Assembly (NCBI GenBank): GCA_903813345.2
Contig: CAIIXF020000010.1
Coordinates: 6,811,169 to 6,875,168, forward strand
Reading direction: 5' to 3'
DNA: 64,000 nucleotides
From: Owenia fusiformis
Taxonomy: Eukaryota > Annelida > Polychaeta > Sabellida > Oweniidae
The position numbers and the translations under genes are program-made. The number at the start of each line of letters is the position of its first letter. The stretch's first letter is position 1. A model generated the notes under the pieces. The model worked only from the letters and a program-made list of their open reading frames with translations, did not search any database and was not told where the DNA came from. Positions 9,583 to 60,500 of this stretch are shown piece after piece.

Positions 9583-20737
<11,155 letters not shown>

Positions 20738-25027: not shown

Positions 25028-27858
25028 ATGATGGAGGAGAAAAAGAAATTGGAAGACCCGATCGTTCAATCGGGGGAAGATAATTTTGAAATTGAAGTAA
25101 GTGAACAAAAAATGAAAAAATGAGCCCGATTCTTAAATGTAACGAATGATTTTTAGTCCGGAGTCCCCGGCTCTCAAACGATATAAAATCAAATTAAGTC
25201 GAGGTACCAGGTGATGACAGCTTTCCCGTAGCATAAACACAATTGAAACAACATCGCACAAAGATCGTGCATTTTAGTGCTTGCAGTTGATAAACGTTTA
25301 TCGAGTTTAGATGTTTACTTTATTAACACTGTCATTCGATTAATTTAATGAAAATCTTAAATGATTCGACTATTTGACGAGGAGCCATGCCAAATTCTAT
25401 AAATGTTGGAGAAGACAGAATCGCAACAAAAGTACAGTTGTTATATTATAAACCCTTTCCGAGTTATAATTTCCAATTTAATATCAATTCCAATTTTTTG
25501 AAATGGACGCAGAACTTTTAACCATTACTGCGTGTAGTAAATGGGCTTCCGGAGGTATGTAGACAGTAGATGATCGATAAACATTAGGAATATGCTGTTT
25601 GGTAACGGGTTTGGTAGCTGCAGGTTTATGGTGTATACTGGAAAGTTCACCTCCTTCTTCTATGAGCATATGCATTGGTTTTGTTTTTTGTCGATTTAAA
25701 CCTAAACTAAATATCGCATTTTTAGCTAAAATATATCGTACAGTCAATCGCATAATCGCTTTCCATTGTCCACTGCTGTTTTGATGCTTACGAAACAAAA
25801 AATATATTTCGTAACTTTTAATACAAACAAAAAGTTAGAAAAGAACAGTCAAAATACTTGAAATCCGAAAGATCGCATCTAATTCTCACAGATTCCCTTA
25901 TTTTGGCCGATCTGTATACTACTCTACATAGAATATATCGGCTTGGTAGCTATAGTACAGACAAGATCCCAAATCGGGACTACAATGACATGATCTCTAT
26001 TTCAGCCTGCAAGCACTGGTGATGGAGGGTTTGAAGAGATCGTCTGGTACAGAAGGCACGATATTTGGGCTTGGTTCGGTGGTATACTGTTCATCCTTGC
26101 CCTCATGGGAGCTATGATGGGAATCGGTGAGTGACTGTTCAATTCATGTTCGAAATATTAAATACGGCCGTAGAATAATTGTTCCTTGTCCGAACAAAAA
26201 TGAAATCAGATTTTTGGCCGATATAAAGATGGCAGCAGCAGTATAATCCTATCAACCAGATTGATTGACCTGCCCTCTTTAGATAAACTATATCGCCCTA
26301 TAGCCAAAACTAGCAGGGGACCGTGGTCAGACTTGATAAATAAGTTATCAACGCACTTACAAATGAAGCTCGTCTATTGTCGATAGCTATTGCTCATCAA
26401 TATGTTATTTCATTTCTAGGAGAAGCAAGGGGATGGGACGCTGCTGCAGGACACACTCATAATACTAGTGCAACATCGCTAGACCGTTTCCTCCCGGAGC
26501 CATATCTCGAAGAGCCGGGTGTGAAATGGCGGTCAGGAGCTGATAGAACCGGTCTCTGGTATTATTGGAAACTGGACCCTGCCAAGGTGACAGCTGCTAG
26601 TAGGGCCTTTATGTGGATCGGTTACGCTGGTCACCAGCTTTCCATATGGTTTGTGACCTATAGGGCGCAGGTGGCAAAGGCCTCTAGGCCTTTCGGCGAA
26701 AAGAAGTACACGCCTTTTATGGACAAATACAATTGGGCAGCGTTCGGATTGAACGCATTCTTTCATATACTACATTTAATTAATACACACACTACATATG
26801 ATGCCACAGCGCAAGATGTTTCAATTGCAAGTTCCCAAGGATCTGTCATCATGGCTTTGTGCTTTGTCATATTTTTAGAATACAGCGAACGTGGACTTTG
26901 GTTAGGATGGCCAGGGCCGAACGATCATGACAAAGTGGCCAAGAAAATACGAACAGCACCATTGGAAGCTGTAAGACTAATGCGAAAATACCATGGTTAT
27001 GCCATATCATGGGCTGCCATATACACCTTCTGGTACCATCCTATGGAGAACACCATCGGTCACGCATTTGGTTTCGTCCACACCTGGTTATTAGTATTGC
27101 AAGGCAGTCTCATGCACACTAAATTTCATCAAAACAAATGGTGGCGATTCATCCTCGAAGCATGGGTCACTATTCATGCGTTGCTAGTAGCTCTTCAAAC
27201 TGGAGACCCGAACGTACTCAATGGGACTCTACTTTGGCCAATGTTCCTGTTTGGCTTCCTCTTTACTCTTTGCTTTACTTGGATATACATTTTTCCATTC
27301 TGGTCAAAAATATCAGGATGGTTCCGTTTGGCCCCCGTTGTACTCTACTTCGCGGCTACGATCGGTAGTTACAGTCAGATTCTAGACAGACAAGGACGGC
27401 CATTTACAAGATTACAGGAAATTATTAGAATACCAGGCATAATATATATCTTCTTCTTCGTAATCTGGGGATTCGTCGCCCTTTTCCAATTAATTGACAA
27501 AAAGATCAACGGAGGTCCTACCACTAAGGCCCCTTCGGCCGGACAACAAGTCGGTTTGATATTTGGATTTCTATTCGGATATGCTGTGATGATTGGCGTA
27601 TCTATAATGTTTCATGTACTAGACTGGCAGACCCAAATGTTCACGTTAATGGCTATTTTAGTTGCTTTATTTACTATAGGTGTCGCTGCTACCAGTGTCT
27701 GCTTGCATAGACTAATCCCAGCGAGAATCAGTGCAAAAATTGAAGACATGGATGTATCCAATCAAGTTGTGCTGACGTCCATTGTGCCCAAGGGCGGCCA
27801 ACAAAATAATGGCTATGACCAATCAACAGAACAAATAGTGCAGACAAAATCTGTGTAG
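25028..27858 (+). CDS. Polytopic histidine-rich membrane protein, family not recognised
   Basis: Three exons join in frame: 25028-25096, 26006-26126, 26420-27858, or 1629 nt giving 542 aa. The start is ATGATG at 25028. The short acidic/lysine-rich cytosolic-like head (exon 1) is followed by about 12 predicted membrane helices: one in exon 2 (about residues 40-62), then about 124-145, 169-190, 200-220, 252-272, 276-297, 305-325, 333-358, 364-382, 401-420, 440-462 and 470-492. Hydrophilic loops and a 45-residue polar tail complete it. Histidines cluster in or beside helices 2-7 (H135, H179, H182, H187, H255, H270, H278, H284, H296, H300, H316), with the block FWYHPMENTIGHAFGF. The pattern could ligate haem or metal, but this is inference. 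No signal peptide. Almost all of the protein is one large exon. I cannot name the family with confidence, and it is not SLC22-like. Confidence 0.9.
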
Positions 27859-29908: not shown

Positions 29909-32900
29909 ATGAATGTTGACAAGGCGTTATCGAGTTTGGGACGCTATAGTCGATGGCAAATGTTTTATATGGTGTTCCTTGGTGTATTTTCGTGTTTACC
30001 AGATGCTTGGAGTATACTTGGTATCGTTTTCATAGGTAAGTAAATCGAAGTAGCATAAATCATTGACTTAATTATCAAGAGAGGTGACTCTACTTTGACA
30101 TTGCTACCGGATATTGCACTTCAAAGTGTACCATAGAGGGATATATATACTAAGTGAATGGATTATATGCACTGCTGCGAGTCATTTTTAGCAATTCAAT
30201 TCAGAGTCCTGTATAATGACAGCACTCAAACAACTGCAACAATTCAGATTCATAGATTGGTACTTGTTTATTATGTCACCACCAAAAGTGGTGACATATT
30301 GTTATGGTCTCCGTTTTTTTGCGACGGCGGTTGGTGGTTGGCGGTTGGTGGTTGGTGCTTGGAGGTTGGCGTCCGGCGTCCGGCGTCTGTAACAATTTCT
30401 TACAACTTCCTATAACTTAACAAATACTGTTTAGACTGACTTCAATTTTTTTCTAAATCATCTACATGTTCTCAGAAGTTCAAATCTGACTTTAGATTTG
30501 ACATTTGACCTTCAATGACCTTCTCAAGGTCAAAAAGGTCTTTTTTCAACTTGCTTCACATTGACTAAATTTTTTTTCAAAATCATCTACATGTTCTCAG
30601 AAATTCAAATCTGACTTTAGATTTGACTTTAGATTTGACATTTGACCTTCAAATCTGACTTTAGATTTGACATTTGACCTTCAATGACCTTCTCAAGGTC
30701 AAAAAAGGTCAAAAAGGTCTGTTTTCAACTTGCTTCAAATTGACTAATACTGTTTAGACTGACTTCAATTTTTTTCTAAATCATCTACATGTTCTCAGAA
30801 GTTCAAATCTGACTTTAGATTTGACATTTGACCTTCAATGACCTTCTCAAGGTCAAAAAGGTCTTTTTTCAACTTGCTTCACATTGACTAAATTTTTTTT
30901 CAAAATCATCTACATGTTCTCAGAAATTCAAATCTAACTTTAGATTTGACTTTAGATTGTACATTTGACCTTCAAATCTGACTTAAGATTTGACATTTGA
31001 CCTTCAATGACCTTCTCAAGGTCAAAAAAGGTCAAAAAGGTCTGTTTTCAACATTGACTAAATTTTTTTTTCAAAATCATCTACGTGTTCTCAGAAATTC
31101 AAATCTGACGTAAGATTTGACTTAAGATTTGACATTTGACCTTCAATTACCTTCTCAAGGTCAAAAAAGGTCAAAAAGGTCTGTTTTCAACTTGCTTCAA
31201 ATTGACTAAAAAAAAATTTCAAAATCATCTACGTGTTCTCAGAAATTCAAATCTGACTTTAGATTTGACTTAAGATTTGACATTGGACCTTCAATGACCT
31301 TCTCAAAGTCAATAAAGGTCAAAAAGGTCTTTTTTTCAACTTGCTTCAAATTGACTAAACTTTTTTTCAAAATCATCTACATGTTCTCAGAAATTCAAAT
31401 ATGACTTTAGATTTGACATTTGACCTTCAATGATTTTCTCAATGTCAAAAAGGTCAAAAAGGTATGTTTTCAACTTGGTTCAAATTGACTAAATTTTTTT
31501 TTCAAAATCATCTACGTGTTCTCAGAAATTCAAATCTGACTTAAGATTTGACTTACGATTTGACATTTGACCTTCAATGACCTTCTCAAGGTCAAAAAAG
31601 GTCAAAAAGGTCTGTTTTCAACTTGCTTCAAATTGACTAAAAAAAAATTTCAAAATCATCTACGTGTTCTCAGAAATTCAAATCTGACTTTAGATTTGAC
31701 TTAAGATTTGACATTTGACCTTCAATGACCTTCTCAAAGTCAAAAAAGGTCAAAAGGGTCTTTTTTCATCTTGCTTCAAATTGACTAAATTTTTTTTCAA
31801 AATTATCTACATGTTCTCAGAAATTCATATATGACTTTAGATTTGACTTTAGATTTGACATTTGACCTTCAATGACCTTCTCAAGGTCAAAAAAGGTCAA
31901 AAAGGTCTTTTTTCAACTTGCTTCAAATTGACTAATTTTTTTTCAAAATCATCTACATGTTCTCAGAAATTCAAATCTGACTTTAGATTTGACATTTGAC
32001 CTTTAATGACCTTCTCAAGGTCAAAAAAGGTCAAAAAGGTCTGTTTTCAACTTGCTTCAAATTGACCAAATTTTTTTTTCAAAATAATCTACATCTTTTC
32101 AGAAGTTCAAATTTGACTTTACAAGTTCTCAGAAGTTCAAATCTGACTTTAGATTTGACCTTTGACCTTCAATGACCTTCTCAAGGTCAAAAAGGTCTTT
32201 TTTCAACTTGCTTCAAATTAACTAAAAAAAAATTTCAAATTCATCTACGTGTTCTCAGAAATTCAAATCTGACTTTAGATTTGACTTAAGATTTGACACT
32301 TGACCTTCAATGACCTAACTAGGTGGTGACATTTTGTCATGTTAATGCCTTGTGAAAACTTTGTTTTTAGGGATTGTCGAAAATAGTGGGGCCAAGAACT
32401 TTATACTCCCTGCTGGGGGATCTGGTAAAGTTGAAAAACGGGGCATTTGAGTACCTTATATTTTTTTTTTCGATATGTCGGAATAAGGATCAAACATTTA
32501 ACGTGCATTTTTTGAAAGCTATTATGTCATGTTATATGTCGTTTTACGGTATGCCAACGACTGAGAATTCAAACAGTGTACTTAACTTCAGAATGATGAT
32601 GTCGCGGGTATTTTTCGTCGAAATTGAATGTATCACCACATTTTAACGCACCATTCGGAAGCTTTATTATGTCGTTTTAACCAGAAAACAGTCTTCTAAC
32701 AACTAAAAAATCAACCACTGAGTGTCACACAATCTCTTGAAAGCCCATGGTCACGCTAAGATTACAACGCTATTTGAGAGATGTTACGGACATTTTGTCC
32801 ACGAGATTTATGTATGTATGTAGTGACTGACCACACTTTGAACATAACATTTGCATAGTTGAATAAATGTTGTTTTTGCCAAAATGAAATTGGTCTTAAT

Positions 32901-38900: not shown

Positions 38901-41900
38901 TGTTTCCCATGGAATTGTATTGTGTACACACATAAATAGTGTACATTATACAGTACTTGAATAGCCTGGTTTACATAATATTGAAGGGCATGCTGATTAC
39001 ATGCACACGAGTACATGAATGAAGGCCTAATATTGATATACGTAGCTTGCATACCTAAATAAAAAATAAACTCTTCTAATCCCCTAATGTAAACACGGCG
39101 GTATACGTAGCCCGATTTATCGGAGACTTTAAAAGAAATCTCTACACAATATTAAATACAATGTAATTCTTGAAAACAGCCCCTTGCTAGGAAATGGAAA
39201 CTTTATTCAAAACCAGCATTGATGCCCTCAAAGCTGAGAACACAAAGCTAAGAGAAGATGTCCAATCACTGAATGCTGAAGTGTCCAACTTGAAAGGTGA
39301 TTTAAACAACATGAAAAGTGACATTAACAAGAACAATCAGTACTCTCGTAAGGACCAACTCATTGTCCATGGTATAAATGACACTAATGAACGAAATGAA
39401 GATTGCATTAAAGCTGTATCTACAAAGCTGAGCACCATTATGCCAAACACCATCGTCACCGAAGATGATATTGATGTGGCTCATAGGATTAAAGGCAAAA
39501 ATGGGAAACCGAGGCCAATAATTGTGCGATTTAGAAGCCGTAAACTTCGTGACCATCTAATCCAGACACGCAAGTCCCTTAAATCTACAGGAGTGTCTCT
39601 ACATGAAAGTCTCTCCCCATTGAACAAGAATCTCCTGTGGCGCCTGAAACAAGCAACTAATGTTAAGGACGCATGGGCCTACAATGGTAAAATTTGGGCA
39701 ATTGGACATATATCTGATCAAAGAAAACAGGTTGACATTACAGATGATATTTCATCTCTTTTCTGAACTTTCAACCCAAAGGGTTAATTGTGTCAGTATA
39801 CAAATACTATAACATGTATAAGTACATGTTACCTTTTCTTCTCAAAGTTGACTCAGTGCCAATGTTTATAAACACTCATACACTAATTTTTGTTGTAATC
39901 ACAGTGTGATCCTGAAAACCTTAATTTGTTTTCACACCAGTTCCTTTTGTTTGTTGAACCAACTTACAAACTTTGTGACCCATTCACAAAGGTTTTTCCC
40001 TTGCAAACCAAGCCAATAATCCTCCTTGGTGAAACACACTGGTCCTTTCTTATTTTATTGCTGCCAGACTCTGAACCACTCGCAAGATAGCAACTTAGTT
40101 GCCATCTATTATTTAACAGGTTAAAAACTTGTCATAGTCTTAATAAAGGTTCATTCACTTTGGCACTTACACACTTTGTTTACCTCTTCCTCATGAAACT
40201 TACATAGAAGAATGTAGCGTATGTACTCATCTTTCCATACCTCAACCTGATTTTTTTTTAATGTATATTTCTCTTATGCTAACTGCTTAATAAGGCAATG
40301 GGCATAGATACTCAATCTTGGCGTAGAGCCATTGGTCTATTCAGTAGTATCTGCAGTACAAATAAATTACTTGACTCTCCCAAACCTAGTAAATGCCAAA
40401 TGCTTCAAGTACTCTTTCAACTATTGACTGGATTACTATTGCTCCTTACAACGGTCAATGGTGTATTGCTTAATCTCTCACCGCATATGATTTCCTTAGT
40501 ACTCATAACTGTGTTTATTGTTTATATAAATATTATGGGCTTCCTAGTCTTAAGTATTATCAATTATGTCCAAGTTGCATGTAGTGCAACTTCATATAGT
40601 TTGCGTAATATGATATACAGTATGTTATCACTTCATTTGTGCTTCTTATCATTGTTTTTACTCCTCAACTTTGCTATATACCCAACACCATTGAATCCTT
40701 ACTTATTTTAAGTGGCGACATAGAATCACATCCTGGACCTCATAACTGGTCAACTGTAAAATTTTTGTTCTCCAACATAAATAGCATCAGTGCTCAATTT
40801 GGCGCTCGGTTTGATGCTCTTAAAACACGTATCTTAACAGAAGATTGCCAAGTTGTAGGTCTCTGTGAAGTCGGAACCTTTACCCAAGATGAAATTACCA
40901 ATCGTTTTTCCATTCCTAATTTCCATCCTCCAATTTACTCGGCTAAAAATCGTGGCTTACTTATCTATATATCTGAAGAAATCCCTATTATAGCTCGACA
41001 TGATTTTGTTAATGCTGAGGGAGATGCCTTATTTATTGAACTTAAGCTCCACCACAAGAGCATTATATATGGAGTTTTTTACCGTTCCCCTTCCCAAGAT
41101 ACTCAACAGTCTAAAGCATATTTTAAAAGATTTTATGATACCTGCTCCAACATTTTGACTAATGCCAATGCTGACCTGCTTGTCATTAATGGGGATTTTA
41201 ATGCTCGTAACAAAATTTGGTGGGATGCTGACAATGAAAACCTTTCTGGAAATGAGCTTAATAACCATCTCCAAAGTCTGGGTTTTTCGCAGTTAATTGA
41301 CCAACCAACTCGCGTCACAAATAGAAGCCAATCCTGCATTGATCTTCTTATTACTAATCAACCAAATCTTATATCCTCTTCAAATGTTACACCTCCAATC
41401 GGAAATACTGACCACAGCACTCTAGTCTGTACCTCATTTATTGGTACAGTAAAGGAACTGCCATATTTCCGTAGAATTTGGTCATATTCCGAGGCTGATG
41501 TTCAAAATATCAACGACTCAATTAGAAATTCAAAACTTGATCAACTTATTGAAAATTCATATGATATGGACATGTTATGTGATCAATTTACTAACCAACT
41601 CTACCAAATATTTACTAATACCATTCCAAATAAACTTATAAAGGTCCGGAGCAATGATAAACCATGGTTCAAGCCTCACATTAAAACACTAATTAATAAA
41701 CGGAATCGTCTACATTTCAAATACCGCCACAACAACAATCAAGAACGCTATCAAAAGTACATTGACCAATGTGATATTGTTAACGAGGAAATAACAAAGG
41801 CCAAACTTGAGTATGAATCACACATGTATGAGAAATTAAACTCCCTTAAATATGGCAGCAAGTCTTACTGGTCGGTCATATCTAAACTTTTATTCAAAAC

Positions 41901-44174
41901 TAAAGTTGTTAGGATTCCTATTTTGACCAACCAAAACGGCTCTTCTATACTCACCAGCACAGAAAAGGCTAATTTATTTCTTGACCATTTCATCAAAAAT
42001 TTTCATTCTGATCATAACGTAGATACAGACAGTGTTCAATTTGACCTTAGAACTGATTCTTTTTTAAATATCCTTTCAACAAATGACAGAGAGATTTATG
42101 AAATTCTTTTATCACTCGATGTTAGCAAAGCTTTAGGTCCTGACAAACTAAGTAATAAAATGCTCAAGTTAGCAGCTCCATCTTTATCAAAATTATTTTC
42201 AAAATTTCTCAATAAGATGTTTGAAATGAGAAAATTTCCTAATTCCTGGAAACTAGGGAATATTATCCCATGCCATAAAAAAAGTGACAAAAATCTTGTT
42301 TCTAATTACCGTCCAATAACTCTATTAAGCTGCCTTTCAAAGGTAGCCGAGAGAGTTATTTTTAAAAGGATGTTTGACCATTTGCTAACAAACAATCTTC
42401 TATTTAATTTTCAAAGTGGATTTCTCCCAGGTCACAGTACACAACACCAACTACTAAGTATTCTTGATTTTTTAACTTCTAATATGGATAATGGTAATGA
42501 TGTTCGTGCAGTCTTTCTTGATATATCGGCCGCCTTCGATACTTTACCCCATAAGCTATTACTTAAGAAGCTACATGCATACGGTTTTGGTCCAAATATA
42601 ATGCTACTTATTGAATCTTATCTTACCAATCGAAAAGTAAGAGTGCTTATTGACGGACACGAATCTCCATGGTCAGCCAGCGACTATATCAATTCGGGAG
42701 TTCCCCAGGGGTCCATCTTAGGACCTCTGCTATTCTTAGTTTACATAAACGATTTACCTGATGATATTTTAAGCAAGTGTTTTCTGTATGCAGATGACAC
42801 TTCTCTTTATCAGCCCTTCAGCCATGATAATATGCCTGAATGTATAAACACCCTCCAATCTGATCTAAATTCTATAAACAATTGGTCTGATAAATGGCAA
42901 TTAAAATTCAAACCCTCTAAAAGTGATGATCTGACATTTAGTAGTCCAAAAAAGAATGAAATAATAACCCCTGACCTAAAATTGGGAACTGAATCCATAC
43001 CTAGGTGTGCTTCGCATAAACACCTTGGCTTTATCCTTGACTCTAAATTATCTTTCAATTTCCACATTACCCATCTTGCAAAGAAAATTGATAAGCTTTT
43101 AAATCCACTTAAAGCATTAAGTAAAAAACTTAGTGGAAACCATCTAAATCTTATGTTCAAATCTTTTATCTTACCACATTTTGATTTCTGCGACATCCTC
43201 TATGGATGTGCAGATATTTCCAAATTAAAACGCATTGACCAACTCTACTACAAGGCAGCTCTGATTTGTAGTGGAACTATTCATGGGTCATCTTCTGAAA
43301 AGGTGCTCAATATTCTAAATTGGCCTAAACTAGAGACGAGGAGGAAGTTTCATCGACTAACCCTCATGTTCAATGTCCAAAATCAGAAAGTTCCTTCATA
43401 TGTTCAAAACATATTTGATAAATATAAGAGACAACAACCTCCTCTCTATTTGAGAAATCCAACTGAATTTGTCTTGCCCGCTAAAAGATCTGTGATATTA
43501 AAGAAAACATGCATTTTTACTGCTATCTCAGAATGGAACAAACTACCCAAACAACTCCAAGAGACAGACAATTTAAGTACTTTCAAATCTAAATTGACAC
43601 TTCTCATTTATCCAGAACCTATCATATCATCTACCTCATTGCATTTACCTAGACCAGAGGAAATCAGTCTTAATAGGACTAGAGTCGACTTGATTTTTCA
43701 ATCTCATTTTCATGCCCACAACTTTACTCTAGCTGATACACCAAAATGTAAGTGTGGATTCAAAAGTGAAACATCCAAGCATGTCATCTTTAACTGCAGA
43801 CTCCGTAGGACCCTCCTAACTGACTTCGAAATTAAACTAAATAACCTTGAAATCCAATATAAAAAGAATTTTAAGACCCAACAAGAGAAATTGAATTTCT
43901 TTCTTTTTGGCAGCTCAAAACTTAACTACGCTACAAACATAACTGTTCTTGAAACTAGTGCCTCTTTTCTCCAGAAGTGTGTAAGTGTCTGAGTGTTAGC
44001 AGCAATTATCAAACCTTCTATGCTTAATTTATTCACCAATTTGCTTCACCAATTGGATTGTTTTTTTGAAATAAAATTTTATAATTAACCCTGCGACTTA
44101 TAATGTTAAACAAAGTCGGCTTTTTGGAAATTTTCTTTTTACATATATTATTGTATTAAATAAAACATGATAAA

Positions 44175-48941: not shown

Positions 48942-49050
48942 TGAACTATGTTACTGATAGTACACATATTAAAGACCAAAACAGAAAAGATTAGCATGGT
49001 CATCTGCGCTCGAGAATGAAACGGAATTTCGAGAAGCGTTCCATATTCTT
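48942..49050 (+). pseudogene. Decayed U6-like snRNA copy 3' of SLC22
   Basis: Matches U6 through AGATTAGCATGG and GAAGCGTTCCATATTCTT, but the ACAGAGA box is altered to ACAGAAAAGATT. It shares the variant 5' stem-loop (TTACTGATAGT) and both diagnostic inserted bases (GG-TCATCTGCGCT) with the array at 53957-57614. No TATA box at -31, so probably a retrocopy. It starts 37 bp after the SLC22 stop codon. Confidence 0.75.
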
Positions 49051-51179: not shown

Positions 51180-53981
51180 TTAATTAGAATTTGGTCTCAA
51201 TTTCATTTCCACCTTCTTGAGAGAGTAAAATTCGTCATGCTTCAGTGTGTACCACACGATGCCATCCGCAAAGGAGCGTCCATTCTCCGAGTACCAGCGT
51301 TTCTGGTAGACGCCGTTCAGATGACTGGAAAAGCAGCTATGGAACCACCATCCTCCTTGGGAAAACAAAATGTGAAGGTTTAGAAATCAAGAATAATATT
51401 TGGTTACAATATACTTCTAGACATAATCAGTTTTCTCTATCGACTACTGGGGATTTCTTAAAGCCCAATATAGTGATTTTAGACAGAAAAATAAAACTTT
51501 GAATCGGACTCTCCGAAAAACCATGGGTTAAAACCAAATCTCGACACTTATTTCAACATAATGTTCGACTTATTTTCTAAAAATTGCATTTGCCCAGTGT
51601 ATGGTCAGTACTACCTTTATTATCTGCTGCACAATTCTTCACATGTCTGTCGTTATCGTAATCCTGGGTACTGAACGCCATGCCTTCATGGAACGTAAGT
51701 GAATCGCCGGCATTGCCAGAATACCCAGTAACGTTTAACGTGTACTTCTCTTTCTCGCTAGATATCTTCATCGTATGGTATTCTGCATACGCCTGATTGC
51801 CTTCCCAATCCCACATATCAACACGTAATGTATAATCTCTCTGGTTTGTGAGATGATGAAGCTGAAAACAATTGTGTGAAAAAGACGGAGTTGCCACCAA
51901 TTCTCTACTATGAGTCCGTCATATCAGCCTTAGTTGCTAGTTCGTTAGCGAAATCTCATCGATATCGGACACCCCGGCATCAGCATTAACAATTGAAACA
52001 GTCAAGCTACTATCATTTAAAACCAGAAACAATCGTGAATTATCGCATTTTTTTTTAAATTTGGAGGTCATTCAATGAAATCAGATGTTAATTAAAATCG
52101 GAAACAATCACTATTTTTCTCAAATTTTCCGCTAAAATCGGATTTTGTTATTAAAATTAAGATTTTCAAAATTAGGGGGTGGAATCAGAAAAATCTTAAA
52201 AATCGAAAGTAATGACGATACATAGGATTTCAATATATAACTACTTTTTTATTTGAGAATTCTCACCTTTTCATTGCCGAGCCAAAAGTCAGAATAAAGA
52301 TTTCCAAATCCATATTTGTATTCTATCCAGCCATTATTGAAACTAGTTACTCCATCCACCCGCCTCTGTATGACAGTCCAACCTTGCAAAACAAAGATAC
52401 AAATTAAAAAAGATGCAAACCTTTAATTTTAACTCTCTATAATTTTCTCATATATGATTTTTGTATACATAGGGTGTTCAGTGGCAACATTGACTTTAGG
52501 ATGAAAAGAAATTATCCCATTCCAAGGTCACTCAGTATACATGTGATAGATCCATAGGGCTTATAGGACCATATATATATAGGGATCAAACTTACTATTG
52601 TCCGACATTTTGAATATCATATGATAGATCCATATATGGTTTGTAGGACCATGTATGAAAAGTTACCAATACCAAGTAATACCAAAGAAATATGGGAGCT
52701 TATCACTTGTTCTGTCATTATTGCATTGCTTTATGACTAAAATACAGTATATCATATTGAGCATATGACAAAAACAAAATGGTGGTTCAAAAAGTCAAAA
52801 AAATTTAGTTAGAAATGTGATTTTGACTGATTGTCTAAGTGATCACAGAAGACGTGAGTATCTCCCATAATTCTTTGGTATTACTTGGTATTATTAGCTT
52901 TCCTAACATGGTCCTAAAAGCCATATATGGATCTATCACAAGAGATTCAAAATGGAGAACAATAATAAGTTGGATTCCTTTCACATAAATACCGCGTACC
53001 AAAAAACCAACTCAGTCTTGGAATCGTATTTCTCACTTCAAAATTTGAATCGCAAGTTTTGGCCTTATTACAAAACAAAAAAATTAAAAATACACACGAA
53101 GTGATCAAGATCATTAGTGGCTTAATTAATGACCATTTTTCACTATTTTAAATGCTGTGAATTTATAGCCAGCTAAATGTCAGACAATAATGACGCCAGC
53201 TTTGTTGGAGAATATCGTTCATTCTCCCCGCAGCCGTTAAACTGTACATCGCATTACTTGGAGATTAAAGTGTGCGCCAAAGTTTAAAACTGCGCAGGCG
53301 CACCGCTCTCGCTAAACTATATAAAGAGATTACCACGGTACAGGCTTCAGAGGTAAGCCAGGAAGGCGAACGATCTTCGTCTCGTCATGATTTCCCATAT
53401 AATCGTAACCAGGGAAGTTTCACCATTGAAATTGAAAATTACTATTAGATATACTTTGTAGATGTTATTTATGAAGCTATTTAGTGTTTGCATCAATCAA
53501 ATGGCTCATTTTGAACATATAAAAAGTATTTGTGTTTTGTTTCCCAGGGAATTGTATTGTATGTAGTACACACATAAATAGTGTACATTATACAGTACTT
53601 GAATAGCCTGGTTTACATAATATTGAAGGGCATGCTGATTACATGCACACGAGTACATGAATGAAGGCCTAATATTGATATACGTAGCTTGCATACCTAA
53701 ATAAAAAATAAACTCTTCTAATCCCCTAATGTAAACACGGCGGTATACGTAGCCCGATTTATCGGGGGCTTTAAAGAATATCGAGTTGGAACCCTGGCTT
53801 CCAATTGTCCTTGTCTCAAAACCAAACGTAACGCAAACGTTTACAAACACAATGATCACATGATTGAAGTCGTTTTAATAACATTTGGGCAACACCATAT
53901 GTTTGTGTTGAAAACTTGTAACGAGTATAAATATTTTTCACTCGCCTGTAGTAAATGTACTGTCACTGACAGTGCATATAA

Positions 53982-54013
<32 letters not shown>

Positions 54014-55385
54014 GGCCACCTGCGCTAAGGATGACACGCAAATTCGTGAAGCGTTCCATATTTTGAAAATTTCATCTGACAATGTTTATAATTTTGTGTA
54101 TTAAAGTATACCATTTTACATTTTTTTGTCCCTAGAATAGCCAGATAGGTCGATTGGCATTATTGTCCAACATGATACTTTCCTTCACACTAGTCTAGAA
54201 ACATGAATAGAGAAGGCTCTGATTGGACAGTTTGAATTCAGAACAATTCAGAACGAATTCAGAACGAAATCAGAACAAATTCAGAACAAGCCAACCAATC
54301 ACAGTCCAGCTCTCAATGAATTCAGAACAGTGTTTTGAATTCGTTCTGAATACAGTGAACTTTAGCTTGACCCGAACGCTAAGGATGACACACAAATTCG
54401 TGAAGCGTTCCATATTTTTGAAAATTTCATCCGACAATGTTTATGAGTTTGTGTAGTCCATTTTACTTTTTTATAAATTAATTGTCTATAGAATAGCCAG
54501 ATAGGTCGATTGGCATTATTGTCCAACATGATACTTTCCTTCACACTAGTCTTCAGAAGTACAAAATAGAAACATGAATAGAGAAGGCTCTGCACAGAGT
54601 CTGCAGTTGCCCCATGAGCATTCTCGTATAGATGTCGACATTACTTGGAGATTAAAGAATATCGAGTTGGAATTCTGGCTTCCAATCCTCCTTGCTCTCA
54701 AACCAAACGCAACACAAACGTAATGATCACGTGATTAAAATCGTTTTAGTAACATTTGAGCAACACCATATTTTGTGTCTTAAACCTTTAATGAGTATAA
54801 ATAGTTTAAACCATTCGCTTTTAAATGTACTGTCACTGACAGTGCATATAATAAAATTGCAACGATACAGAGAAGATTAGCATGGCCACCTGCGCTAAGG
54901 ATGACACGCAAATTCGTGAAGCGTTCCATATTTTTGAAAATTTCATCTGACAATGTTTATGATTTTGTGTATTAAAAGTATATGTAGTCAATTTGAATTT
55001 TTATAAATTAATTGTCTCTATAATAGCCACATAGGTCGATTGGCATTATTGTCCAACATGATACTTTACTTCACAACTAGTCTTCCGAAGTACAAAATAG
55101 AAACATGAATAGAGAAGGCTCTGCACAGAGTCTGTAGTTGCTCCATCAGCATATTTCTCGTATAGATGTCGACATTACTTGGAGATTAAAGAATATCGAG
55201 TTGGAACTCTGGCTTCCAATCCTCCTTGCTCTCAAACCAAACGCAACACAAACGTAATGATCACGTGATTAAAATCGTTTTAGTAACATTTGAGCAACAC
55301 CATATTTTGTGTCTTAAACCTTTAATGAGTATAAATAGTTTTGACTCGTCGCTTTTAAATGTACTGTCACTGACAGTGCATATAA

Positions 55386-55417
<32 letters not shown>

Positions 55418-57530
55418 GGCCACCTGCGCTAAGGATGACACGCAAATTCGTGAAGCGTTCCATATTTTTGAAAATTTCATCCGACAATGTTGATGATTTT
55501 GTGTATTAAAAGTATATGCAGTCAATTTGAATTTTTTATAAATTAATTGTCTCTATAATAGCCACATAGGTCGATTGGCATTATTGTCCAACATGATACT
55601 TTCCTTCACACTAGTCTTCAGAAGTACAAAATAGAAACATGAATAGAGAAGGCTCTGCACAGAGTCTGCAGTTGCCCCATCAGCATATTTCTCGTATAGA
55701 TGTCGACATTACTTGGAGATTAAAGGGATCCACCACCTTACAAAACTCCTTAACGGAGAGGACTAAGGGAAAATGCTTGCCGGATTCTGAATCTGTGTAT
55801 TGTATAATGATTTTTCACCATCTTAGAATTTCAATTTTTTCCTTTGAAAAAATGAGATTTGCATTGTTTTCCAATTAGAAAAATGAGTAAACATGAATAG
55901 CTCGAAATCTAACGGTGAGATTTTGTTTTAAAAAATCATGGATATCAAGGCTAAATATAGCTATATATATAAGTTGTACGAGGTGCAATGCTCTACAAAC
56001 ACCAGACTACAGGGTGGATTAGGATCAATGACACACATAAAAATTAATTAAAAAATATTTCATGATAATTATCTCAAACAAAAGCAGTTGGCGAAGGATA
56101 CGTTTCATTACACTCAATAAATAGTTATCACTTTTGACTATATATACATATCTCATGGGAATGTATTTCCATCTGCTCAAGATATTATATTTTAGCTTCG
56201 AAAATCACAATCGTTGGATAATACATTTGTCTCAGAATGATAGGCCACCCTGTAGCAATGTAGCTTTCACTTGAAGTGTACCCTTGAGAATAATGAACTT
56301 ACTTTCAAATTGGTCTTGCTTTTGTGGTGTATGTGGCTTTTTAGCAAATCTGCCACGCTCATTTCTTTCCAGAACCATCATCTTGTTCAAATGTATCACT
56401 ATACGCGAATGTATAGACAGATGACATAGATATACATATAAATTATATATTGCACCTGTATTTACTTACATGGGAATATATTCCCTTTGGAAAAATGCAA
56501 ATGCATGGACATATATTTTCATCTTATATATGACTTCAAGCTAACATATTATTTCATATTTATATTTTCATAGTTATTTTAACATGAATAATAGATCCAT
56601 GAGAACAATATTCTTTGTGTTTTTTTTAATTGATGGGTTTACTCTGTTACTGTGAATTCAATAAATTACAATTTGCAAGGGGTAAGTATACTGTATGAGC
56701 TGGCTAGTAGTTCTCTTTCTTCTATTTTTCAAAATTGATACGGGAATGACGGTTTTTATGTTACCTTTTTTCTATTTAAAATGCTGATGAGGGACGGGAT
56801 GATTTTTTTCTTTAAAATATCTGTAAAAACAGATAACTAATTTTGAAGGAAATAAACTGGGTTTATGTTGAATTTATATGTTGAATTTAGCCTACTTTAC
56901 TGGTATATTTGATCATATATCAGTACCACGATATTGTCAATTATCCTGATCCATAAAAAGTTTAAAAAAATGGTTTCAAACGCCATGGATGCGCGCGAGG
57001 TACGGTGTTTTTCTCAGAAATGGCAGAAAAAAGGTGGAGGGGGATTGGGCCACACGCGGGCAAGAATGATAAACAACTAATTTAATTACCCTAACCTTAG
57101 TTCATCCAGTAGTACGTTTTTACTGCAAAGTAGTGTTTTTATATGCAGCTTAATAGCATAAAATATGTTGAATGAAGCATATGGTGTGGATAAGTCGTGT
57201 GACACACAAACTGACCAATACATGAGGGTATTAGCTACTTTTCACAAAAACAAAAGGAGGACAGTGCTTTTATTTCAATTGGGAGCTTACCTCCACACGA
57301 CTGATCATGTGACCATGGTGGTGGTCCCCTTTAAAGAATATCGAGTTGGAACTCTGCCTTCCAATCCTCCTTGCTCTCAAACCAAACGCAACACAAACGT
57401 AATGATCACGTGATTAAAATCGTTTAAGTAACATTTGAGCAACACCATATTTTGTGTATTAAACCTTAAATGGGTATAAATAGTTTTGACTCGTCCCTAT
57501 TAAATGTACTGTCACTGACAGTGCATATAA

Positions 57531-57562
<32 letters not shown>

Positions 57563-60500
57563 GGCCACCTGCGCTAAGGATGACACGCAAATTCGTGAAG
57601 CGTTCCATATTTTTGAAAAAGTTTTTTTATAAAAAAATGTGGAAATTACCCCCAAATTAAATTATGAATATTCAAAAGAGGACATTTAAATCTCCAATAT
57701 GTAAAAATATCAAAATTGTCAGAAGCACTAAGCAGGCGTAACGTGCAGTAGACCGATTCAAAAAAATACAAGTCTCGGTTTGCAGAAGGAATTTCATCAA
57801 TCTACGTGGCTCTTGATTTTTTATGAAAAATATCGAAATAACACTGCGGTATCTGACATATTCCGCAAGTGAGTATGGCATATTCTGCATTGAAATTTGA
57901 TATAATGAATACCTTGTATTCACCTGCGTAATATGACATATTCACTCGAGGAATATGGCATTTACCGCGCGGTGAACGCCATACAAAATTACCTTGATTT
58001 GATTAGTTTAAAGAATCAACACTAAAGGTAAAACTATTGTTTTTATCGCTTCGAGCACTTAACTATGAATCCAGGAGTGATTAAGTAAGTTTATTACGTG
58101 TGATCGGTAAATGATACATCTGAAAGTAGCAGTAACGTATTAATCGCGATCAAATACTCGTGTTTTTCAAGTTTTTTTCTGGTCTTGGTAAACTGTTGAT
58201 TTGGTTGTAAAAGTCACTCATAAGCTTCACGAACGTTCGAACGTGGGTTCTTTATTTATGAGTAATGATGTATCACTTGAAGTGCGTTTTTGCGTGTAAA
58301 ACATATATAAAACAACATCAAACAATACAGGTACCACTGGTGTATGTTATTCAATTGTATCAGTTCATATATTCAATGCACTGACCTCTTGATTCAGTGA
58401 TCATTATAATAATTTATAGACTTTAACCCGTTCGTTGAATCGATGTAATTGACAATTGCGTACTTCCGTCTCGCGTTCTCATTGGTTAGTGTGTATGCCA
58501 TATACCGCAGGTGTATCTGCCATACACCGCAAGTGAACATGCCATATTCGTTGCGGAATATGACAAACATTTGTATCGTGTTTACCGTGTAACACTTGCA
58601 GCCTCTTTTTGCTTTTTATAATGTTGATTTGTTTGGCTGATAACGGGGCTGATAAGCAATTTTTCAAGATAAAAGTAACCTTTTCACTGGTCCCCAGTGG
58701 TATGAAACTTAGGCCCAGGAATACGTTACAAAAATGTGTTAAAAGTCCCGTAGTGTACTGCGTTGGTAATTTGTAATTGTATACTGTATACTTATACTGA
58801 ATTATGTAACTATATTTGCACATATACATGCGTACGGCTGCAGATGAAGATGGTCGAATGATGAACGCAACACAGGAAACGTTATTTCGGTACCCCGCAT
58901 CTTGATTCTCAAGGTTTTAGTTGATCCAACCACTTGGAATTCGAAGATGGTACCCCGGGCTCGGGTATAAAACGATTTAAATAATAAAATAAAGATGACA
59001 TGGTAACGGATCAGTGTTTATTCATATTATGAAACAGTTAGTCTCATCCGCAATGGCGAACACAATTATTTAAGAATGCAGTAATGCATTTTTCAAGACT
59101 GGTAGATTGCACAAATAACATAAATTACTACGTAATTATCAGTACGAGATTTAAAGATTTGAATATTTAAAGTTTCATCTTTTTAAAGACATATTTGAAT
59201 TCTAAAATATTTGTTCATAATATTATATTGCTCAGCATTTATTACCAGTGTTGTTGACATACTGGCAGTACACGTCATCCAACATGGCCGTCCCTTTGGG
59301 CATTATCCTGTAGACACCGCTGACTTCAAAACCATTCTTGTATAAATCATGGCAATCTGATGAATAATAAAAAAGCATTGGTCAATCATATTAAGATACA
59401 TCAAATAATGCTTTGATATGCGAGTATACATGTAGTGAATCGTGTATTGTAATATTTTGTGTAATTGTTATTATTACGATATTGTCAATATAACAAATAA
59501 ATAAACAAATACTATAGACCAATCAATCAAATAAAAACAAGATTATTTACCTTTTGGTATTGCTCTTGTTTTCTGTTGATTTCTCTCTGGTGGTTCTTTG
59601 ATTTCGACATGTTCGTTTTTAGGATTCCGTAAGCGAACTTTACCACCACCGAGAATATTTAGCATTGGTACATCGTCATCGCTCCCAATGTCTATCTTTT
59701 CATTTTGTTCATTCAGATCATTTGAATCTTTCTCAAACTGGTAGGTACCTATCTTTTTCAATAAATTTTCAATGGTGATTTGTGATGTCGATGTGTTCTT
59801 GCCACTTTCAACTATGGTCAGAAATTGTCGCTTGAGTTTGTTGGTTACCTCTTTTAGATATCTGACATCGTGTAACATTGCAGTTGAATCAGAATCCATT
59901 TGGGCCAACTTTTTTTTGATTTCTTCGTGCTCATATCTTGTGTTACTCTGGCTGTTTTTCAAAATGACATTATCTCCTTTTATCTCTTCTACCTTTCTCT
60001 TGAGAGCATTTATATTTGTGTTCAGTTCATTTTGAGTGTCTTTTAACGTTTTTGAGTCTTGTTCAGTTGATTCAATGCGTGTGTTTAGTGAAGCTGCCTC
60101 TGATATGATATCATTCTGACCGTATTTTAGCTGCATGCTTTCAGATCTTGAGTCTTGTACTTCTCTTTTGATTTGAATCCACTCAGATCTAAGATCACTC
60201 AAAGCGTTCTTTAAACTGCTGGCCAACCTTTCAGTAGTTTCAAATTTCTTTTTGAATTTTTCCAATCCTTTTTTCATTTCCCGGTGGTTTTGTTTCAACT
60301 TGTGTGCATCTCCTTTAATGTTTCTTACACCACCTTCCATCTTGGAAGTTAATTCATTTGTTCGACTGAGTTGATGTATAATGTCCTTTAACTTAGATTC
60401 AAATTCAACCTCTTTCACTTTTGATTTTAGAAGTCCCTTTTCCAAAGTCCCTGTGAGGTTTGTATCCCGCAAAGTTTTGGTGAAAATCTCGTTTCGTATA

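Follow-up and report, generated by a model that had tools for sequence, protein, structure and literature searches.

A second class of U6 small nuclear RNA genes in Owenia fusiformis with two additional bases in the internal stem-loop

The 64-kb stretch of Owenia fusiformis DNA analysed here (the window, part of contig C10) contains four full-length genes for a variant of U6 small nuclear RNA (snRNA), all on the plus strand and within 3.7 kb. These genes share two inserted bases in the internal stem-loop. Because three intact normal U6 genes are present elsewhere in the assembly (498 Mb in 525 contigs, the scope of all genome searches below), the four variants are, as judged from their sequence, a real second U6 class that is found only at this locus and is probably functional.

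When scanned with the Rfam U6 model (RF00026), all four copies score far above the gathering score of 44 bits: copy 1 (53957..54065) at 91.9 bits, copy 2 (54827..54935) at 92.7 bits, and copies 3 (55361..55469) and 4 (57506..57614) at 95.0 bits each. The base pairs named in the available text of PMC13109388 were used to fix human numbering, which places the inserted A between C61 and C62 and the inserted U between C68 and A69. In the DNA, these are A and T at 54018 and 54026 (copy 1), 54888 and 54896 (copy 2), 55422 and 55430 (copy 3), and 57567 and 57575 (copy 4). The Rfam model aligns every copy with surplus bases in the internal stem-loop, and its consensus has no base at either site. With whole-RNA scores so far above threshold, the altered stem-loop is a difference inside the U6 family and does not place the copies outside it. 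The altered motif, GGCCACCTGCGCTAAGG (54014-54030, 54884-54900, 55418-55434 and 57563-57579), has four matches in the window at up to three mismatches, all of them exact (mean of 0.01 in 100 shuffles), and four matches in the whole assembly at up to one mismatch, every one inside the window. The first-pass annotation of this DNA, which had proposed a four-copy family with a common alteration of the stem-loop, is therefore borne out by the sequence, the Rfam alignment and the motif counts.

The 5' hairpin also departs from normal U6. Its rebuilt form, noticed earlier as an 8-bp stem, is recovered by folding: 8 base pairs (bp) and a 3-nucleotide (nt) loop are predicted at -9.1 kcal/mol (z -3.49; equalled by 1 of 200 shuffles). 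After this hairpin the variant reads AUAUAA, compared with AUAUAU in the normal gene on contig C1; AUAUAC at this position, 3' of the hairpin, is part of the U6 capping signal. Apart from the 5' hairpin, the variant and C1 sequences are identical except at the two insertions and a single base. The ACAGAGA box and AGC triad are exact over ACAGAGAAGATTAGCATGG in each copy, and the 3' end is retained, as had been described. Transcription terminators follow in the form TTTTG (copy 1) or TTTTTG (copies 2-4). The variants thus resemble normal U6 (RF00026 and the C1 and C9 genes) in length, ACAGAGA box, AGC triad, 3' end and terminator, and have a promoter like that of C1; they differ in the two insertions, the 5' hairpin, and a predicted pairing of U74 and weaker pairing with U4 (both discussed below).

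A comparison with canonical U6 genes, suggested by the first-pass annotation, shows three intact normal genes to four variants. Of 48 candidates scored with the U6 family model, 12 matched: a normal gene on C1 (118.2 bits), a pair of normal genes 746 bp apart on C9 (109.6 bits), three interrupted C9 pieces, the four variants, a decayed copy (48 bits) and a sub-threshold fragment (39.8 bits). The variants are thus four of the seven intact U6 genes of the assembly; normal C9 copies are possibly undercounted, because the array near the start of that contig adjoins a run of 500 N. The 19-mer ACAGAGAAGATTAGCATGG, at up to one mismatch, occurs at 11 places (one on C1, four on C9, five on C10 and one on C5), and the C5 place was rejected as a U6 gene, being a chance match. 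Searched against viral contigs, the same 19-mer had no matches; among prokaryote genomes it was found in one contig of a bacterial bin, within a U6 fragment that has the normal GGCCCCTGCGCAAGG and was taken as eukaryotic contamination. U6atac (RF00619) is encoded separately at two places (100.1 bits), so the variant does not replace it. The likeness to U6atac is that of a second U6-type RNA in one genome; the variants instead match U6 itself. The normal C1 gene lies within approximately 3 kb of the first of four U1 genes (C1:49835563-49857036).

A promoter of RNA polymerase III type, consisting of an element resembling the proximal sequence element (PSE) and a TATA box, and a run of four or five T are present in all four variants. 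The PSE matrix was trained on five of seven distinct U2, U4 and U5 upstream regions, namely those with ACCA at -56; a C7 U5 gene without ACCA and a C6 U5 gene with ACCA at -71 were excluded, and a C5 U2 gene (4984633), which by eye has no such element, was not used. For this comparison the U5 start was set at ACTCTGG. The PSE-like elements, all on the plus strand like the TATA boxes, lie at 54761..54778, 55295..55312 and 57440..57457 for copies 2, 3 and 4, each with ACCA at -62 and a score of 13.96, which only four of 127,964 window sites reach, these three included. That of copy 1 (53890..53907, ACCA at -63) is the weakest at 6.11, and 229 of the window sites score as high. The TATA boxes (53926..53933, 54796..54803, 55330..55337 and 57475..57482 in copies 1 to 4) begin at -31 with TATAAA in every copy, and CACGTG is found at -99 in copies 2-4, in agreement with the earlier description. 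The normal C1 gene has ACCA at -63, TATATA at -32 and a matrix score of 11.16. A C9 U6 gene scores poorly (3.36, with 887 window sites as high), and no TATA match was found for the C9 U6 genes in the promoter scan. The constant promoter spacing previously claimed holds for the TATA box; the PSE-like element of copy 1 is shifted by 1 nt, and its upstream block measures 186 nt compared with 175 nt in the other copies.

The RNA bodies of the four copies are far more alike than their surroundings. Upstream, copy 1 differs from copies 2, 3 and 4 at 33, 28 and 31 of 175 aligned positions (16-19%). Downstream, 46 and 47 of 222 positions distinguish it from copies 2 and 3 (21% for copy 3; the downstream sequence of copy 4 does not align and was left outside this comparison). 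In the RNA, its differences from copies 2, 3 and 4 number only 1, 0 and 0 of 103 positions. For copies 1 and 3, the Fisher test gives p 1e-6 for RNA against upstream and 3e-9 for RNA against downstream sequence. Copy 1 matches copies 3 and 4 without gaps or mismatches over -5 to +108, and the identity is lost 5 nt upstream of the start on one side and within the terminator on the other; because this tract is bounded by both ends of the transcript, it is as expected from selection on the RNA. Copies 2-4 differ mutually by 3.4-7.4% upstream. The suggestion of a very recent amplification accordingly fits these three copies and does not fit copy 1. Together, the comparisons suggest that the four variant genes have been preserved by selection, pointing to a second working kind of U6.

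Random decay, which the first-pass annotation had named as evidence against its proposal if seen in additional copies, was found in one further member of the family, at 48945..49050 on the plus strand (the 48-bit Rfam match), and the four promoter-bearing copies differ from one another by no more than one change in 103 nt. This copy has 22 mismatches to copy 3 in 105 aligned positions and has both insertions in common with it; it aligns with the variant at a score of 133, compared with 119 and 106 for normal U6. It has no promoter (matrix score 2.06) and no detectable flank homology: each score that its flanks obtained against those of copies 1, 3 and 4 was also attained by at least 40 of 200 shuffles. 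Simulated flanks at 24% divergence scored at least 99, and at 35% divergence scores fell as low as 22, inside the shuffled range. Nor did its surroundings show a target duplication of at least 6 nt. Because it spans the transcript, it was perhaps copied from variant RNA by reverse transcription, and such an origin may be an indirect sign that the variant is transcribed in the germ line. In being transcript-length, decayed and promoterless, this copy resembles the U6 retropseudogenes described in the available text of PMC4476161; unlike those, the four variant genes have promoters and next to no mutual changes. Spread decay and loss of the promoter thus characterize the copy at 48945-49050 only.

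Folding suggests how the insertions could alter the RNA. As an isolated hairpin, the variant stem-loop is predicted at -5.2 kcal/mol, compared with -3.8 kcal/mol for the normal one; the inserted A pairs with U74 at a probability of 0.65, A73 is bulged, and the apical loop has 6 nt rather than 5. In full-length folds, the probability that U74 is unpaired is 0.315 in the variant and 0.993 in normal U6. According to the available text of PMC6859860, the phosphate oxygens of yeast U80, the equivalent of U74, coordinate two metal ions, and the stabilising yeast change A79G is cold-sensitive. The available text of PMC13109388 states that over-stabilisation of the human U6 hairpin lowers the U4/U6 interaction; it also reports that G72 methylation needs the U74 bulge and the apical-loop sequence, so the variant would probably be less methylated at G72. 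U4/U6 stem II with the U4 of the same genome is predicted still to form, at -21.3 kcal/mol for the variant compared with -24.0 kcal/mol for normal U6 (2.7 kcal/mol weaker). In this prediction a U4 uridine is the partner of the inserted A, one C is bulged out, and the inserted U either bulges or stands opposite U.

In the same assembly, all of the best 42 U4 candidates score 123.5 bits, and the one locus that was read has the normal 5' end AGCTTTGCGCAGTGGC. Searches for a compensating U4 with the pattern GCTTAGCGCAGN{0,1}TGGC gave no match. The sequence AGCTTNGCGCAGNTGGC was found at three places with one mismatch, compared with one place for the reversed control; these were judged to be chance matches from the matched letters alone. 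The small contigs C350, C386 and C514 contain tandem arrays of alternating U4 and U5 genes with a unit of approximately 1147 bp.

Our favoured explanation, to which we give about an even chance, is that the four genes encode a transcribed and selected U6 variant with altered kinetics. The variant RNA would enter spliceosomes and work in splicing; with the inserted A pairing U74, this base would be mostly paired and A73 bulged, and the inserted U would widen the apical loop from 5 to 6 nt. A stronger internal stem-loop combined with a weaker stem II would mean a looser hold by U4 and therefore other kinetics between the U4-bound and active forms, perhaps serving particular introns, tissues or temperatures. 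Between the two possibilities left by the first-pass annotation, a functional variant or a homogenised family of dead copies, the functional side is favoured because the RNA body is identical in copies 1 and 3 amid flanks diverged by 16-21% and because the promoter is in the register of the C1 gene; function itself is a prediction from the DNA sequence. Several observations weigh against this explanation. Copy 1 combines its weak PSE score with a terminator of four T and the lack of CACGTG, and copy 2 has a single base change in the RNA, not found in the other copies (TTGG to TTGC). An old DNA duplicate that died late would resemble the copy at 48945-49050, and conversion confined to the RNA would also give identical bodies, although it would need the same borders. 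The second-best fold of the variant hairpin (-4.5 kcal/mol) leaves U74 free, neither hairpin beats its own shuffles (z 0.35 and 1.16), and the fold predictions ignore proteins and modifications. In normal free U6 at pH 8, moreover, U80 can itself stack in and pair with C67 (available text of PMC6859860). A paired catalytic U74 could cripple the variant RNA, and no U4 matching the variant was found among the best 42 candidates, a search that could miss a divergent U4.

Among the other explanations, the one we rate highest, though still unlikely, is that these are working U6 genes kept for dosage, with the insertions as tolerated passengers in a small tandem family and an RNA that behaves normally. 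The evidence of conservation and promoters applies equally here, and copies 2-4 are young; fold-compatible insertions are also not rare, as 345 of the 896 two-base insertions modelled in the normal hairpin were predicted to leave the upper stem intact (in 47 of those, an inserted base is also predicted to pair with U74). However, the Rfam consensus lacks a base at the insertion sites, the hairpin is sensitive to stabilising changes in the available texts of PMC13109388 and PMC6859860, and the predicted effects on U74 and on U4 pairing are not small. Homogenisation of a non-functional tandem family by gene conversion or unequal exchange is also improbable, and only slightly less likely than the dosage explanation. 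Exchange would readily give copies within 3.7 kb of one another and the upstream likeness of copies 2-4, and both a decayed and a truncated copy lie close by; it would nevertheless have to halt within a few bases of both transcript ends (copy 1 against copies 3 and 4), and exchange by itself would not explain why the remaining RNA sequence matches normal U6 or why the PSE and TATA stay in register.

A last alternative involves Dada-U6, a transposon that inserts into U6 genes. The available text of PMC3706591, from which the features used for comparison were taken (including sub-terminal TCTTCTCTG and CAGAGAAGA), gives its target duplication in U6 as 65-GCGCAA-70. In the C9 U6 array (C9:37301-50000), two U6 5' halves and one 3' half surround an element with internal repeats. 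GCGCAA is present at one of the two left junctions, CCCCTGCGCAA, and at the right junction, GCGCAAGG; the second left junction is without a duplication. Both left junctions have TCTTCTCTG, and the right ends, which match imperfectly, bear CAGTGAAGT and CAGTGAACT. C9:40001-50000 has no stop-to-stop frame of 120 amino acids (aa), and in C9:37301-40000 the only 120-aa frames run through a stretch of N; with no DDE transposase frame of this length seen in C9:37301-50000, where shorter exons were not sought, the element would be non-autonomous or decayed. The window contains a right-end relic of such a transposon (54217..54375, plus strand), approximately 90% similar to the end of the C9 element. 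It is followed on the same strand by the 3' half of a variant U6 gene (54376..54419), in which the inserted T is present; the junction reads ACGCTAAGG. This truncated piece differs from copy 3 at 1 of 43 positions (54377-54419) and its flank at 8 of 146, too few for a contrast between the two. The insertions could have been favoured for spoiling the target site, with the altered RNA as a side effect: the inserted T falls inside the published duplication, and Dada-U6-like insertions interrupt the normal C9 array. We consider this the least probable of all the explanations, as the relic adjoins a U6 half bearing the variant T, so that a variant gene was apparently hit too, and the inserted A lies outside the duplication. 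An origin of the insertions as an excision footprint was dropped by reasoning, since a T inside and an A outside the duplication do not form a GCGCAA remnant.

A second set of divergent snRNA genes was found on C7, where three U2 genes (C7:22678328-22679540) score 101.8-113.3 bits, compared with approximately 188 bits for normal U2. In all three, GUGUAGUA of normal U2, which we take to contain the branch-site-pairing stretch, is replaced by GUGAAAGUA. The RNA sequences of genes a and b are 97% alike, compared with 70% for their upstream and 73% for their downstream flanks (RNA against upstream, Fisher p 1e-11), and their upstream alignment score of 4 is above the mean and below the best (16) of 300 shuffles. 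Genes b and c show no such contrast (RNA 97%, upstream 96%). ACCA is at -56 in two of the three genes, with moderate scores (5.10); copy a scores 2.24 with its element elsewhere. It is very unlikely, if somewhat less so than the transposon explanation, that the variant U6 and this U2 trio form a second, specialised major spliceosome for distinct introns or a life stage, a likelihood that we lowered in view of the high upstream similarity of genes b and c. Another U2 copy (C2:10808549-10808735) has a normal 3' part with A/T-rich sequence in place of the first ~30 bases, and is probably damaged.

Elsewhere in the window, a long open frame with Exo_endo_phos_2 and RVT_1 domains (40609-43992) belongs to a non-LTR (long terminal repeat) retrotransposon, and a 504-aa open frame without a Pfam match (26344-27858) apparently encodes, by eye, a multi-pass membrane protein. 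There are two tandem arrays: 14100-15635, with 21-bp-based GTGGCCCCCAGAAGCTATAC units and a switch of orientation near 15200-15220, and 30423-32316, with units of approximately 148, 283 and 431 bp. A fibrinogen domain is present among the genes of the window contig.

In the open-licence PMC literature, neither the variant motif nor a U6 with such insertions was found described. A parallel is offered by the snRNA isoforms that are regulated during development in flies and vertebrates (PMC4291461), which likewise are paralogues of differing sequence in one genome. The available text of that paper describes isoforms of U1, U2, U4 and U5, with the fly U6 genes as an exception that lacks multiple nucleotide differences; in O. 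fusiformis, unlike in those systems, U6 itself has two classes, distinct in the catalytic hairpin. Few RNAs are as strongly conserved as U6, whose internal stem-loop holds the catalytic metals. A natural class of U6 with two extra hairpin bases, preserved amid diverged flanks and existing beside normal U6, would reveal how far the active site tolerates change.

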